The notes beneath the pieces are model-generated. The model was not told the origin of the DNA, made no database searches, and saw only the letters and a program-made list of their open reading frames with translations. Shown piece after piece: positions 12,738 to 16,997 of a DNA stretch of 32,089 nt. Position 1 is the first letter of the stretch. Each line of letters begins with the position of its first letter. Source of the DNA: Solirubrobacterales bacterium (lineage in GTDB: Bacteria > Actinomycetota > Thermoleophilia > Solirubrobacterales > Solirubrobacteraceae); the NCBI GenBank assembly GCA_019247075.1, contig JAFAPR010000317.1, positions 1 to 32,089 on the forward strand, read 5' to 3'. The position numbers were made by a program, and so were the translations under genes.

Positions 12738-13151
12738 CTATCCGCAACCTGAACGCCATAGTTCGTCGAGGGCAGCGTTGACGAGCGTGTCCGCGCGGGC
12801 GTTCTGGGCGCGCGGGACCGTGCGGATCTGCCACTCCAAGCCGTCGAGCGCGCGCAGAACGCCCGCGTGGAGCGGCTTTAGCGCCGAGTGCTTGACGCGA
12901 TAGGCGCCCGTCAGCTGGCGGGCGACCAGTTCCGAGTCACCGATGATCTCGAGCTCGTCGGCCCCCAGCGCGCGGGCCGCGGCCACGCCGCGCAGCAGCG
13001 CCCGGTACTCGGCCACGTTGTTGGTTGCCAGCCCGATCCCCTCCGCGATCTCCTGGAGCACCGTGCCGTCGGGATCGGAGACGACCACCCCGATCGCGGC
13101 CGGCCCGGGGTTGCCGCGCGCGCCACCGTCGACGTTCACGACGAGCTTCAC
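12738..13151 (-). CDS. Ribonuclease HI-like protein
   Basis: A 137-residue RNase H-fold protein that would cut RNA in RNA-DNA hybrids. The four acidic catalytic positions are visible: Asp in VNVDGGARGNPGP, Glu in NNVAEYRALL, Asp in IGDSELVARQL, and Asp in NARADTLVN. This is the short RnhA-like form common in Actinobacteria and archaea, without the basic protrusion of the E. coli enzyme. It starts at GTG 13151, ten bases after the stop of the zinc-ribbon gene. A second, unrelated RNase H (RnhB) is encoded at 28773-29402. Confidence 0.9.
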   Translation of the reverse strand: MKLVVNVDGGARGNPGPAAIGVVVSDPDGTVLQEIAEGIGLATNNVAEYRALLRGVAAARALGADELEIIGDSELVARQLTGAYRVKHSALKPLHAGVLRALDGLEWQIRTVPRAQNARADTLVNAALDELWRSGCG

Positions 13152-13161
13152 GGCGAGGCAC

Positions 13162-13869
13162 TTACTTGCGCAGCGCGAGCTCGCCGTACTCGTCGGCGGC
13201 GGCGTTGGGCTCGCGCTCGCCGGGCTCGAGCTCATCGAGCTCGCCTCCCTGGGCGGCCACGCGGACGCTTGGCACCGCTTCGGCCAAGTCGACCTCGTAG
13301 CGGTACCAGCACAGCTCCCAGGCCGCGACCACGCGGACCACGCTGGCCTCGTCATGCGAGGGGAGGACCGAAACCGCGGGGGACCCGAGCGAGCGTCCCA
13401 CGCCGGCGATCGTGCGGATGTGTTCGGAGTCGTTGAAGGCCCGGATCGCGGCGGCGACCTTCTGCTCGGGGGTGGCGGGAACGGCGTGCGCGTGCCGGGA
13501 CTCGTGCGCGACGTCAGCCGCATGACCGGCCGCGCCGAGGCGCTCCGGCCCATGGGCCGGCGGCGGCAGACCGTCGCCGTTGTAAAGCTCGAAGCCTCCG
13601 CCGTTGGCACGCTGGTCAGCCTGCCCCGCGTGCAGCCAGGGCAGCAGCGTACGCCTCCGCTCACCGGCCTCCTCGCCGGGCAGGTAGGTCGGAACCGTTC
13701 CTTCGAGGACCCAGCCGCCCTCGAGCGCCCGCGGGACGCACAGGTCGCACACCCAGTGTCGCTCGCCGGCCGCCACGTACACGTCGGCATGCTCGCCCCG
13801 CAGCAGGTTGCGGCCGCACACTTCGCAGGTCGTATGGGTAGTGGAAACGCGGATGTTTCTCGTGATCAT
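13162..13869 (-). CDS. Zinc-ribbon protein of unknown function
   Basis: A 235-residue protein with two CxxC pairs near the N-terminus (Cys15/Cys18 in CEVC and Cys41/Cys44 in CDLC), which should bind one structural zinc. A middle segment rich in Ala, Gly, His and Pro is followed by a conserved-looking region (AAIRAFNDSEHIRTIAGVGRS, shortened here) and AAWELCWYRYEVDL. The C-terminus is acidic. It has no membrane segment and no enzyme motif that I recognise. It precedes the RNase HI-like gene by ten bases and follows fusA2, so it may belong to nucleic-acid metabolism; this is only contextual. GAGAGGAG lies somewhat far upstream of ATG 13869. Confidence 0.75.
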   Translation of the reverse strand: MITRNIRVSTTHTTCEVCGRNLLRGEHADVYVAAGERHWVCDLCVPRALEGGWVLEGTVPTYLPGEEAGERRRTLLPWLHAGQADQRANGGGFELYNGDGLPPPAHGPERLGAAGHAADVAHESRHAHAVPATPEQKVAAAIRAFNDSEHIRTIAGVGRSLGSPAVSVLPSHDEASVVRVVAAWELCWYRYEVDLAEAVPSVRVAAQGGELDELEPGEREPNAAADEYGELALRK

Positions 13870-13945: not shown

Positions 13946-16018
13946 TTAAGCCTTGACGGCCTCGCGTTCCGCCCGGGCCTCCTCCACGACCTTGCCCGCG
14001 AGATGGCCAGGAACCTCTTCGTAGCGCAGGAATTCCATCGTGAACTCGCCCCGGCCGCCTGTGATCGAGCGCAGGTCGGGCGCGTAGGAGAGCATCTGCG
14101 CCATCGGCACCTCGGCCTTGACCTCGGTCATGCCGGCGCCCGCCGGCTCCATGCCCAGCGGCCGGCCTCGCCTCGAGTTGAGGTCCCCGATCACGTCCCC
14201 GACGGCGTCCTCGGGAACCGTCACGGTGACGAGCACGATCGGCTCGAGCAACACGGGCGAGGCTTCCTGCAACGCCTGCTTCATCGCGAGCGAGCCCGCC
14301 ACCTTGAAGGCCATCTCTGAGGAGTCCACGGTGTGGTACGAGCCGTCGTAGAGGCGCACCCGCACGTCCTTGACCGGGTAGCCGGCGAGCACGCCCTCCT
14401 GCATCGCTTCCACCACGCCCTTCTCGACCGCGGGGATGAAGCCCGAGGGGATCACGCCGCCCTTGATCTGGTCCACGAACTCGAACCCCTCTCCCGGCGC
14501 GAGCGGCTCGATTGCGATGTGGGCGTCGCCGAACTGGCCGCGGCCGCCCGTCTGCTTCTTGTGGCGGCCGTGGGCCTTGGCGGGCTTGCGGATCGTCTCC
14601 TGGTAGGGCACGCGCGGCGGCTTCAGGTTGACCTCCGCCCCGAAGCGCGACTTCAACCGCCCGACGATCACCTCCACGTGGATCTGGGAGAGGCCGGCGA
14701 CGATCTGCTCGCCGGTTTGGGGGTCGCGATGCAGGTCGATCGTGGGGTCTTCCTCCTGCAGCCGGCGTAGCGCGGTGAAGACCTTGTCCTCGTCGCCCTT
14801 GCTCTTGGGCTCGATCGCGAAGGCCATCACCGGGGGCGGCAGCTTGATCTGGGGCATCTCGACCGCCTCGTCGCGCGAGGACAGCCAGTCGCCCGCGCGC
14901 GTCTCCTTGAGCTTCGCCACCGCACCTATGTCGCCGGGGCCGAACTCGGTCGCGTGGCCGGTCTTCTGGCCCTCGAAAGTCAACAGCGTTCCCACCCGCT
15001 CCTTGCCATGGGTGCGGGTGTTGAGCACTTGCGAGTCCTGCTTGAGCACGCCCTGGTAGACGCGGAAGAGGTTGATCCGCCCGGCGAACGGGTCGGCCCT
15101 CGTCTTGAAGACGTACGCGTACATGTCATTGTCGTCGACGGCTTCGAGCTTGATCTCACCGACCTTTGGTCCGCCGTGCTTGACCGGCGAGGGCAGGTCC
15201 TCGACGATCGCGTCCAGCAGCCTGTTGGTCCCCAGATTGCGCGTCGCCACGCCGCAGGTGACCGGGTAGATGCCGCCGTGGTTGGTGCCGTCCTTGAGCG
15301 CGGTCACGATCTCCTCGTGGGAGATCTCCTCGCCTTCGAGGTAGCGCTCCATCAGCGCGTCGGAGTTCTCGGCGACCTCGTCCATCAGCTTCTCGCGGTA
15401 CTCCTGCGCCTGCGCCTCGAGCTCTTGCGGGATCGCACCCTCGCTGCAGTCGCGCGCGGAGCCCTCGTAGCGGTAAGCCTTCATGTCGACGAGGTCGATC
15501 ACGCCCGAGACCTCGTGCTCCGAGCCGACCGGGATCGCGGTCGCTACCACGTGCGAACCGAAGGCGCCCTTGAGTGCCTCGAGCGTGCGGAAGAAGTCAG
15601 CCCGCTCGCGGTCGAGCATGTTGACGAAGATCAGCCGGGCGAGGTCGAGCTCGGCGGCCCGCTGCCACAGCCGGATCGTCTGTACCTCGGCGCCCATCAC
15701 GGCGTTGACCACGAAGATCGCCGACTCGCACACCCGCAGAGCGCCGAGCGCGTCGGCGACAAAGCTGGGATCCCCTGGAGTGTCGATCAGGTTGACCTTG
15801 CGGTCCTGCCACTCGAACGAGGCAAGCGCCGCCGAGATCGACATCTGGCGGCCCTTCTCGTCCTCGTCCGCATCGGACACGGTGCTGCCATCGACCACCG
15901 AGCCCAGCCGGTTGATCACCCCGGTCTCGTACAGCAGCGCCTCGTGCAGGGAGGTCTTACCGGCGCCGCGGTGGCCGACGAGCGCCACGTTTCGGATTCG
16001 ATCCGCGGCCTTGTGCAT
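13946..16018 (-). CDS. fusA2: Elongation factor G-like protein (EF-G2 type)
   Basis: A 690-residue translational GTPase homologue with the five-domain EF-G layout. The P-loop is GHRGAGKT (residues 15-22) and G3 is DTPG (79-82). The G4 motif, normally NKxD, reads NMLD (133-136), so the lysine that packs on the guanine is methionine. The C-terminal part has GRGQFGDAHIAIEP and SRRGRPLGMEP as in EF-G domains IV-V. Actinobacterial EF-G2 proteins are a separate group from the main fusA, which lies in the str operon; the M. smegmatis one binds GTP but was reported not to support translocation. Start ATG 16018 has a strong AAGGAGAGGAG. It follows the triple palindrome. Confidence 0.92.
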   Translation of the reverse strand: MHKAADRIRNVALVGHRGAGKTSLHEALLYETGVINRLGSVVDGSTVSDADEDEKGRQMSISAALASFEWQDRKVNLIDTPGDPSFVADALGALRVCESAIFVVNAVMGAEVQTIRLWQRAAELDLARLIFVNMLDRERADFFRTLEALKGAFGSHVVATAIPVGSEHEVSGVIDLVDMKAYRYEGSARDCSEGAIPQELEAQAQEYREKLMDEVAENSDALMERYLEGEEISHEEIVTALKDGTNHGGIYPVTCGVATRNLGTNRLLDAIVEDLPSPVKHGGPKVGEIKLEAVDDNDMYAYVFKTRADPFAGRINLFRVYQGVLKQDSQVLNTRTHGKERVGTLLTFEGQKTGHATEFGPGDIGAVAKLKETRAGDWLSSRDEAVEMPQIKLPPPVMAFAIEPKSKGDEDKVFTALRRLQEEDPTIDLHRDPQTGEQIVAGLSQIHVEVIVGRLKSRFGAEVNLKPPRVPYQETIRKPAKAHGRHKKQTGGRGQFGDAHIAIEPLAPGEGFEFVDQIKGGVIPSGFIPAVEKGVVEAMQEGVLAGYPVKDVRVRLYDGSYHTVDSSEMAFKVAGSLAMKQALQEASPVLLEPIVLVTVTVPEDAVGDVIGDLNSRRGRPLGMEPAGAGMTEVKAEVPMAQMLSYAPDLRSITGGRGEFTMEFLRYEEVPGHLAGKVVEEARAEREAVKA

Positions 16019-16046
16019 GCCTATCTCCTCTCCTTCAAATTTTTAT

Positions 16047-16118
16047 CGGGGGCGCGCATGCGCGCCCCCGTGGGTCGGCGCATGCGCCGACCCAGGCCGG
16101 ACCGCATGCGGTCCGGCC
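16047..16118. repeat. Three contiguous 24-bp perfect palindromes
   Basis: Palindromes occupy exactly 16047-16070, 16071-16094 and 16095-16118 with no base between them. Their 12-base arms are CGGGGGCGCGCA, TGGGTCGGCGCA and GGCCGGACCGCA, each followed by its exact reverse complement. All share the centre CGCATGCG but differ in the outer arms, each change being matched on the other side. The block begins three bases after the stop of the sigma-factor gene and ends 28 bases before the fusA2 start. It could form three stacked RNA hairpins with CAUG loops (terminator), a cruciform, or an array of dimer-binding sites. Confidence 0.9.
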
Positions 16119-16121
16119 ACT

Positions 16122-16907
16122 TTAATCAAGTTCGGCCGCGAGTTTCGACCGCAACCGCAACGCCGCCTTGGCGTGCATCTGGCTGACCCGTGATTCGGTC
16201 ACCCGCAGCACCTCGCCGATCTCGCGCAGTGTCAACTCCTCGTAGTAGTAGAGAGCGATCACGAGCCGCTCGCGGTCTGGCAGGGCGAGGATGGCCTCGG
16301 AGATCCGGCGGCGGCGCTCCAGGACGTCGAATATCTCCTGCGGGTCGGGCGCCTCGAGGTCGGCCACGGTCTCGATCAGCGAGACCTGGTCCCCGCCGCG
16401 CTCGGGCGCGTTCCACAGTTCGTCGAGCGCGACGATCGTGGAGCGGGATATCTCGAGCAGTGCTTGGTGGAGCTCCTCGACCGTGATCGCCAGCTCCGCC
16501 GCCAGCTCTTCGTCGGTGGGGGCGCGCAACAGGCGGCCCTCCAGCTTCACATTGGCCCGTTCGAGCTCACGCGCGCGGGCTCGGACGGTGCGCGGGACCC
16601 AGTCGAGTGCCCGTAGCTCGTCGAGGATCGCGCCGCGGACGCGGGGGATCGCGAACGTCTCGAATTTGACCTCGCGCGAAGGGTCGAACCGCTCGATCGC
16701 GCCGGTCAGCCCGGAAAGCCCGTAGGAGATCAAATCTGCCTCCTGCACATGCGCGGGGAGGGCAGAGTGAAGCCGCCCGGCCACGTACTTCACCAGCGGC
16801 GCGTAGGCCAGCACCAGCGCTTCCTTGGCCCGGCCTTCGTCGCTGCAGTGGTAACGCCGCCAAAGTTCGCGCAGCTCGACCGCCTTGAGCTCCGCGTCGG
16901 TGTTCAT
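16122..16907 (-). CDS. whiG: RNA polymerase sigma factor, FliA/WhiG family
   Basis: A 261-residue alternative sigma factor. Region 2 shows PLVKYVAGRLHSALP, DLISYGLSGLTGAIERFDP and KFETFAIPRVRGAILDELR, the last being a FliA/WhiG hallmark. Region 3 follows with DWVPRTVRAR. Region 4 contains ALPDRERLVIALYYYEELT and the helix-turn-helix LREIGEVLRVTESRVSQMHA. In Streptomyces whiG lies near dprA and a Xer recombinase in this same chromosomal neighbourhood, which favours a WhiG-type role (developmental or envelope genes) over flagellar control; no flagellar genes are in view. Start ATG 16907 has AGGCGAG upstream; the frame is open for 18 more codons. Confidence 0.9.
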   Translation of the reverse strand: MNTDAELKAVELRELWRRYHCSDEGRAKEALVLAYAPLVKYVAGRLHSALPAHVQEADLISYGLSGLTGAIERFDPSREVKFETFAIPRVRGAILDELRALDWVPRTVRARARELERANVKLEGRLLRAPTDEELAAELAITVEELHQALLEISRSTIVALDELWNAPERGGDQVSLIETVADLEAPDPQEIFDVLERRRRISEAILALPDRERLVIALYYYEELTLREIGEVLRVTESRVSQMHAKAALRLRSKLAAELD

Positions 16908-16997
16908 CTCGCCTGGAACTGTCACATCGGAAGCGACCCGCGGCTGGCGCGCCCGGCGCACACCACCTCTCTCTCTCCCCGCACGGGCCGCTCGGGC

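Follow-up and report, generated by a model that had tools for sequence, protein, structure and literature searches.

A dispersed family of abutting CATG-looped palindromes at gene borders in Solirubrobacterales

Between a WhiG/FliA-like sigma factor gene and a gene for an elongation factor G (EF-G)-like protein, a Solirubrobacterales bacterium carries three perfect 24-bp palindromes that abut with zero spacing. They lie in the 32,089-nucleotide stretch analysed here, referred to as the window (contig JAFAPR010000317.1 of assembly GCA_019247075.1, positions 1 to 32,089), where CGGGGGCGCGCATGCGCGCCCCCG occupies positions 16047-16070, TGGGTCGGCGCATGCGCCGACCCA 16071-16094 and GGCCGGACCGCATGCGGTCCGGCC 16095-16118, and CGCATGCG is the centre common to all three. 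Far from being a local curiosity, this array belongs to a dispersed family of non-coding, extragenic elements. The original prediction, made from the window alone, had proposed a repeated palindromic unit whose arms drifted under pairing constraint; its coordinates and the 24-bp length, perfect pairing, abutment and common centre of the palindromes were all confirmed by sequence reading, and the proposal itself is borne out by related loci in the same genome and in its relatives.

Both neighbouring genes are on the minus strand. In the order of transcription, the sigma factor gene (16122-16961, minus strand) is followed 3 bp after its stop codon by the array, and the start of the EF-G-like gene (13946-16018, minus strand) lies a further 28 bp away, as predicted. 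The palindromes have no strand of their own; the whole array (16047-16118) scored 99 bits on the minus strand with covariance model R1, for which it was one of 38 training arrays. The first palindrome (a 10-bp stem with a CATG loop) and the third were each recovered by sequence reading, a repeat finder and RNA folding; the second was recovered by direct sequence reading and folding and is not a separate pair in the repeat-finder output. The minus-strand RNA is predicted to fold into three stems of 10 bp, each closed by a 4-nt CAUG loop (minimum free energy -69.6 kcal/mol; z-score -7.5 against 200 shuffles). Nothing in positions 15800-16400 exceeded the gathering threshold of an Rfam family, the best score being 28.1 bits where 112 were needed.

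Distribution and architecture of the family

A DNA search of the window's own genome (G000) with 251 bases around the array gave 15 further matches of 73-90% identity. Several of them (C19, C6, C294 and C123) cover the whole 72 bp and end a few bases from the array edges, and the copies read from this search consist of three palindromes with other arms, some of them imperfect. With RCATGY fixed at 24-bp spacing and the arms left free, the same genome gave 13 forward matches (12 arrays) versus none in the reversed control; in every one of the 12 the free arms form palindromes, with between one and three mismatches in four cases. Over 61 genomes this pattern matched in seven, all of the same genus, with 47 forward matches, one of which (L027) is a non-palindromic tandem repeat with the same spacing and was dropped from all array counts. 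When the spacing was freed to 22-26 bp, the 18 forward matches in the window's genome comprised 16 arrays, one of them matched twice, and a single chance match, and three of the 16 have a 22-bp middle palindrome.

The covariance model built from 38 arrays matched in 14 of 121 relatives, all of one family: 10 of the 28 genomes in the window's own genus, with two other genera contributing four more. These 14 include weak matches in G019 and G092 that were not inspected, and counts per genome are lower bounds; within the genus, copy number ranges from none detected to at least about 18 per genome. Two single-gene trees place the array-bearing members of the genus within a single part of it, where they are intermixed with non-bearing ones. 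Among the 118 stretches listed in a GTDB scan, 20 were palindromic, all from metagenome-assembled genomes of Solirubrobacterales type; 19 are named as Solirubrobacterales, and the twentieth (L117), named as Actinomycetes, corresponds in match position and sequence to G013:C198 of the same genus. The remaining 98 stretches were other kinds of tandem repeat or chance spacing. A phage origin was rejected, as 23 stretches in IMG/VR match the GCATGC spacing pattern and none of their 44 placements is palindromic. The arrays form a structure-defined class of extragenic repeat in the little-studied Solirubrobacterales of soil, and no description of it was found in the open-licence PubMed Central (PMC) literature.

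Each element is a run of three palindromes, or in rare cases four, that abut, measure 22-24 bp and are centred on CATG; each palindrome has a 10-bp stem and a CATG loop, and the arms are free to differ. The catalogue holds 97 arrays and 295 hairpins: 87 arrays have three palindromes, seven have four, and two were recognised in the other three. Where chaining had joined just two palindromes, the spacing was used to supply the missing centres; two arrays (L013 and L297) were added by hand, and 28 rows consisting of N runs in L151 were dropped. Strict triples are usual in the window's genus; G065, of another genus in the same family, has six arrays with four palindromes (L260, L262, L266, L267, L270 and L272), some with spacers of one or two nucleotides. 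The loop is CATG in 294 of the 295 hairpins. In 343 kb of non-array sequence from the same loci, perfect hairpins with a 10-bp stem and a 4-nt loop numbered four, versus two after shuffling, which is chance level. Loop length alone is not special, because inverted repeats with 4-nt spacers are the generally preferred kind in bacteria (PMC13155455).

Gene borders, flanks and shared gaps

With genes called by a simple codon-usage caller trained on the window, 33 of the 97 arrays lie between convergent genes, 46 between codirectional genes and 11 between divergent genes; six overlap a predicted open reading frame and one is without a neighbour. Convergent arrays are a median of 6 bp from the nearer stop codon and 13 bp from the farther, and for codirectional arrays the medians are 11 bp from the preceding stop and 30.5 bp to the next start. 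Two of the divergent arrays, L026 (G009:C6) and L285 (G016:C43), are 19-25 bp from the predicted starts of both genes, at nearly equal distances in the two species, and leave almost no room for promoters outside the array.

The flanks of the 97 arrays share a polar consensus, GGA before and (G)AAC(A) after the array, with a summed score of 335 versus 135 for flanks displaced by 40 bp (10 restarts for the control, 30 for the real flanks). AAC occurs within 2 nt of an array end 45 times versus 1-10 times in six displaced controls, and GGA and AAC stand at opposite ends 14 times versus 0-1. No direct flanking repeat of at least 5 nt, such as a target duplication would leave, was found in the 97 arrays; direct repeats of 2-4 nt are slightly above their level in re-paired flanks (41 against 28.4, 9 against 6.0 and 3 against 1.2).

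Arrays in different species share gaps in which both neighbours are homologous at 17 locus pairs in 10 gaps, one of which spans two genera (G008 and G025 with G076 and G028); in the G000:C294/G008:C70 pair, the second homologous gene is 700-780 bp away. Genes at these shared gaps include those for UvrC, a class I tRNA synthetase, GMP synthase, an enoyl-CoA hydratase/5'-3' exonuclease pair and a divergent HpcH/MaoC pair, and the distance from array to conserved gene is often kept to a few bp between species. The gap beside the sigma factor gene holds an array in three of 24 same-genus gaps (G000, G008 and G025). In G025 the array is in the same place and differs from that of the window at six fully compensated pairs, and in G008 a 24/22/24 array stands elsewhere in a longer gap. 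No array was found in the other 21 gaps read (three of them cut short or without the EF-G gene next door). Special control of the sigma factor or EF-G gene, which the original prediction suggested, is not supported, given this scarcity and the presence of the same element beside UvrC, the class I tRNA synthetase, GMP synthase and others. Unrelated sequence in orthologous gaps, named in the original prediction as a refuting observation, was found in those 21 gaps and not in G025 or G008, whose arrays have other, fully compensated arms; the original interpretation is partly supported.

Copies also recur within genomes and appear to turn over. In G025, two arrays at different sites are identical in all 30 stem pairs. 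A G009 array stands between convergent genes that lie end to end without an array in G008; the right-hand gene of that site is also without an array in G016, G022, G023 and G027, where the left-hand gene is unmatched. Since orthologous arms are little more alike than random ones and near-identical arrays occur inside genomes, copies appear to overwrite each other, to spread or to re-enter the same sites.

Two further structures were observed. The sigma/EF-G gap of G009 (L062) contains a different, larger inverted repeat beginning GTCCATGGGACC, which by eye encloses two hairpins and is flanked by others; similar pieces occur in L063, L066 and L075, and structures of this type may be a second dispersed palindromic family. 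In the window itself, a 29-nt inverted repeat at 12790-12871 (86% complementary, with a 24-nt gap) lies in the 3' part of an RNase H-like gene (12738-13790, minus strand).

Symmetric change in the stems

Pairing in the arms was nearly complete even where it had not been required. Among 46 search windows found without an arm requirement (45 arrays, the four-palindrome array L016 being counted by two overlapping windows), 1224 of 1242 outer pairs are Watson-Crick and 126 of 138 hairpins are perfect. The check proposed with the original prediction, a search of related genomes with an RNA covariance model, found the family with double changes at 30 of 30 stem pairs: in the alignment (A1), 1139 of 1140 cells pair, 316 are double-change cells and two are G-U. 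Alignment A1 comprises 38 of 49 oriented arrays; the imperfect L009, L032, L042, L049 and L053 were left out, L039, L041, L044, L047, L051 and L129 were kept out for size only, and L016 had been removed before. In the full catalogue, 2629 of 2655 inner pairs are Watson-Crick, the exceptions being three G-U, two A-C and 21 others; three decayed hairpins account for about two thirds of them. Pairing is less strict at the outermost position (259 of 293 Watson-Crick) because some palindromes are 22 bp long. Over all 2948 catalogued pairs, G-U is hardly commoner than A-C (8 versus 5).

The manner in which stems differ was followed in closely related copies. When two hairpins from the same genome differ at a single pair position, the difference is symmetric in 80 of 87 comparisons and one-sided in seven, and 14 near-identical array pairs within genomes show 40 symmetric and four one-sided differences, the comparisons in both sets not being independent. 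Symmetric changes with few mismatched intermediates are what hairpins maintained by template switching are expected to show. In 13 orthologous comparisons (the other four of the 17 locus pairs differ in the number of hairpins recognised), 231 pairs are the same, 133 differ symmetrically and 16 on one side, and 11 of these 16 involve a single array with a decayed hairpin (G009:C266). G is favoured in the 5' arm (1546 G versus 1025 C), and an excess of 5' U is not seen (164 T versus 153 A). Stepwise compensation in RNA should make G-U intermediates stand out, and they number three among the 2655 inner pairs. The symmetric changes suggest, as far as the sequences can tell, rewriting of the arms at the DNA level by template switching rather than stepwise RNA compensation.

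Known systems and possible explanations

Repetitive extragenic palindromes (REPs) and bacterial interspersed mosaic elements (BIMEs) of the GTAG and CGTC super-families (PMC3733652) resemble the arrays in being short multi-copy extragenic palindromes between convergent or codirectional genes, near 3' ends, and in having an unpaired motif next to the hairpin. The arrays are likewise dispersed, repeated extragenic palindromes. Unlike REPs and BIMEs, however, they have free stem letters, rare G-U pairs, units that abut in threes, a CATG loop and a GGA/AAC flank, and they show no association with REP-associated tyrosine transposases (RAYTs). Membership of the REPs was rejected on the tag, as the flank consensus is not GTAG or CGTC (these tags themselves were not counted), and on the stem, as a stem-sequence family with frequent GT pairs, the frequency of which is noted for REPs (PMC3733652), is not what stems varying at all 30 pairs represent. 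Membership of the miniature inverted-repeat transposable elements (MITEs) or of classical insertion sequence derivatives was rejected for want of a target-site duplication of at least 5 nt. Mitochondrial repetitive hairpin-forming elements and GC clusters (PMC2800124, PMC4478555) are also dispersed, hairpin-forming or palindromic and thought to be mobile, but they are mitochondrial and are likened here by description, not by sequence or structure.

Three guessed families of mobilising partner were rejected. RAYT (PF01797) had no match in the bearing genomes G000, G008, G009, G013, G019, G021 and G023 and one in the bearing G016, and it is present in the array-free G002, G011, G017, G020 and G024; the genomes are incomplete drafts, and the test covered bearing genomes other than G025, G027, G065 and G076. 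Reverse transcriptase (PF00078) is missing from the bearing G013, G025, G027, G028 and G076 and present in several array-free genomes, and IS110 transposase (PF01548) is missing from the bearing G076 and present in most array-free genomes.

If the arrays were plain bidirectional terminators, ending transcription on both strands, only the stability of the RNA stems would matter and they would be compensated step by step in the ordinary way. The three strong stems and the placement close to stop codons are consistent with this; so are the hairpin-cluster intrinsic terminators (PMC8355165), groups of hairpins soon after a stop codon for which a terminating role has been proposed, frequently with no poly-U, and the enrichment of preferred 4-nt-spacer inverted repeats downstream of transcription ends (PMC13155455). 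Those clusters, however, are predicted from unrelated sequences in each genome, whereas the arrays are one family with a fixed unit length, number and loop. For termination, the exact 24-bp unit, the three copies and the self-complementary CATG loop are superfluous, and the few G-U intermediates and the 80:7 ratio of symmetric to one-sided changes are not what stepwise compensation would be expected to leave. The divergent arrays, the flank motif that ignores the direction of transcription and the window's own copy (the only one scanned), with no terminator-like site, make this explanation unlikely. A non-autonomous mobile element, similar to REPs or MITEs, would instead have an enzyme of the host or the element recognise CATG-looped single-strand hairpins and insert the unit at GGA/AAC sites, so that stems would be born perfect and shared sites would be hot spots. 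Identical or near-identical arrays at different sites of one genome, the polar flank motif, one filled and one empty site and the range of copy number within one genus argue for this. Against it, the same gaps are occupied in different species and once in two genera, often within a few bp of the same distance to the gene, target duplications of at least 5 nt are lacking, and presence does not track Y1 transposase, reverse transcriptase or IS110 genes; we consider it doubtful.

Proteins could also bind the array, with a dimer on each CATG-centred palindrome, for instance in chromosome organisation. The matS sites are protein-bound sites that organise the chromosome. Gyrase targeting of Escherichia coli REPs offers another parallel (PMC3733652), and the two-fold symmetry that extends through the nearly invariant loop, the equivalence of both strands and the number of arrays in the richest genomes (at least about 16-18) would suit such binding. 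Arm letters vary freely, though, so that a reader of duplex DNA would see CATG only and would need no palindromic arms; these matter only in hairpin or cruciform form, and this explanation is improbable.

The explanation preferred here, held at about even confidence as a whole, is a dispersed hairpin-cluster element with DNA-level upkeep of its stems, a BIME-like role at gene borders and spread within genomes. The family, its architecture, its placement at gene borders, its presence in orthologous gaps, the near-identical copies within genomes and the symmetric pair changes are observed. Perfect stems would be maintained chiefly in the DNA itself: template switching during replication would rewrite one arm from the other, and a mutation in an arm would thereby be either erased or turned into a symmetric pair change. 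Template switching makes and keeps perfect stems and yields symmetric changes (PMC8794818), and hairpins subject to it (quasipalindrome correction; PMC8794818, PMC7202029) share with the arrays their perfect stems, symmetric multi-base changes and preference for G in the 5' arm. They differ in that the work on them concerns mutation at E. coli hot spots and in rRNA genes and not the way a dispersed element family persists, and the intrastrand model also predicts a 5' U excess, which is lacking here. Selection or copying would keep the length, number and loop of the hairpins and not the letters of the stems. At gene borders the cluster would play a part much like that of BIMEs, forming a hairpin barrier that is symmetric between the two strands (a transcription boundary or an mRNA 3' end), and it may also be where a protein recognises DNA hairpins with CATG loops. 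Because the loop is self-complementary, the same hairpins form on both strands, which suits a two-way boundary or recognition of DNA hairpins; from its placement, a boundary is probably the role of the array. Within a genome, copies may multiply or replace one another through a mechanism that leaves or prefers GGA/AAC ends.

Several points weigh against this explanation. Template switching accounts for symmetric arms and not for the fixed length, number or CATG loop, so that selection or copying must still act. Orthologous arms agree at a mean of 18.5 of 30 pairs in 12 three-hairpin comparisons, versus 15.9 (standard deviation 3.3) for random ones, and in two or three orthologous pairs the flanks, by eye, give opposite orientations; shared sites may therefore be insertion hot spots and not the result of inheritance. 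The 11 divergent arrays, two of them so close to both starts, do not fit a pure 3'-end role; of 22 confidently oriented codirectional arrays, the flank motif points with transcription in eight and against it in 14; and no terminator-like site, and no U-tract after a GC stem, was found in positions 15700-16500 of the window. None of the three guessed families, which are not a genome-wide profile, supplied a mobilising gene. The invariance of the loop is partly due to ascertainment, as most searches used CATG. One array of the window's genome (L295, G000:C189, about 1945-2020), which is outside the 97, has two loops changed to CACG and CGTG, with two stems still paired, and is perhaps a decaying copy.

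We tentatively suggest, with somewhat less than even confidence, that the heritable identity of the family is its shape and not its sequence: three fixed-size CATG-looped hairpins whose stems would be continually and symmetrically rewritten in DNA, by template switching or a dedicated hairpin-copying enzyme, and would stay self-complementary across genera with little shared stem sequence. With 295 hairpins of one design and near-identical copies within genomes, this family makes symmetric (one-step) versus stepwise compensation directly measurable, and it bears on how long hairpins keep their pairing perfect as their letters change.
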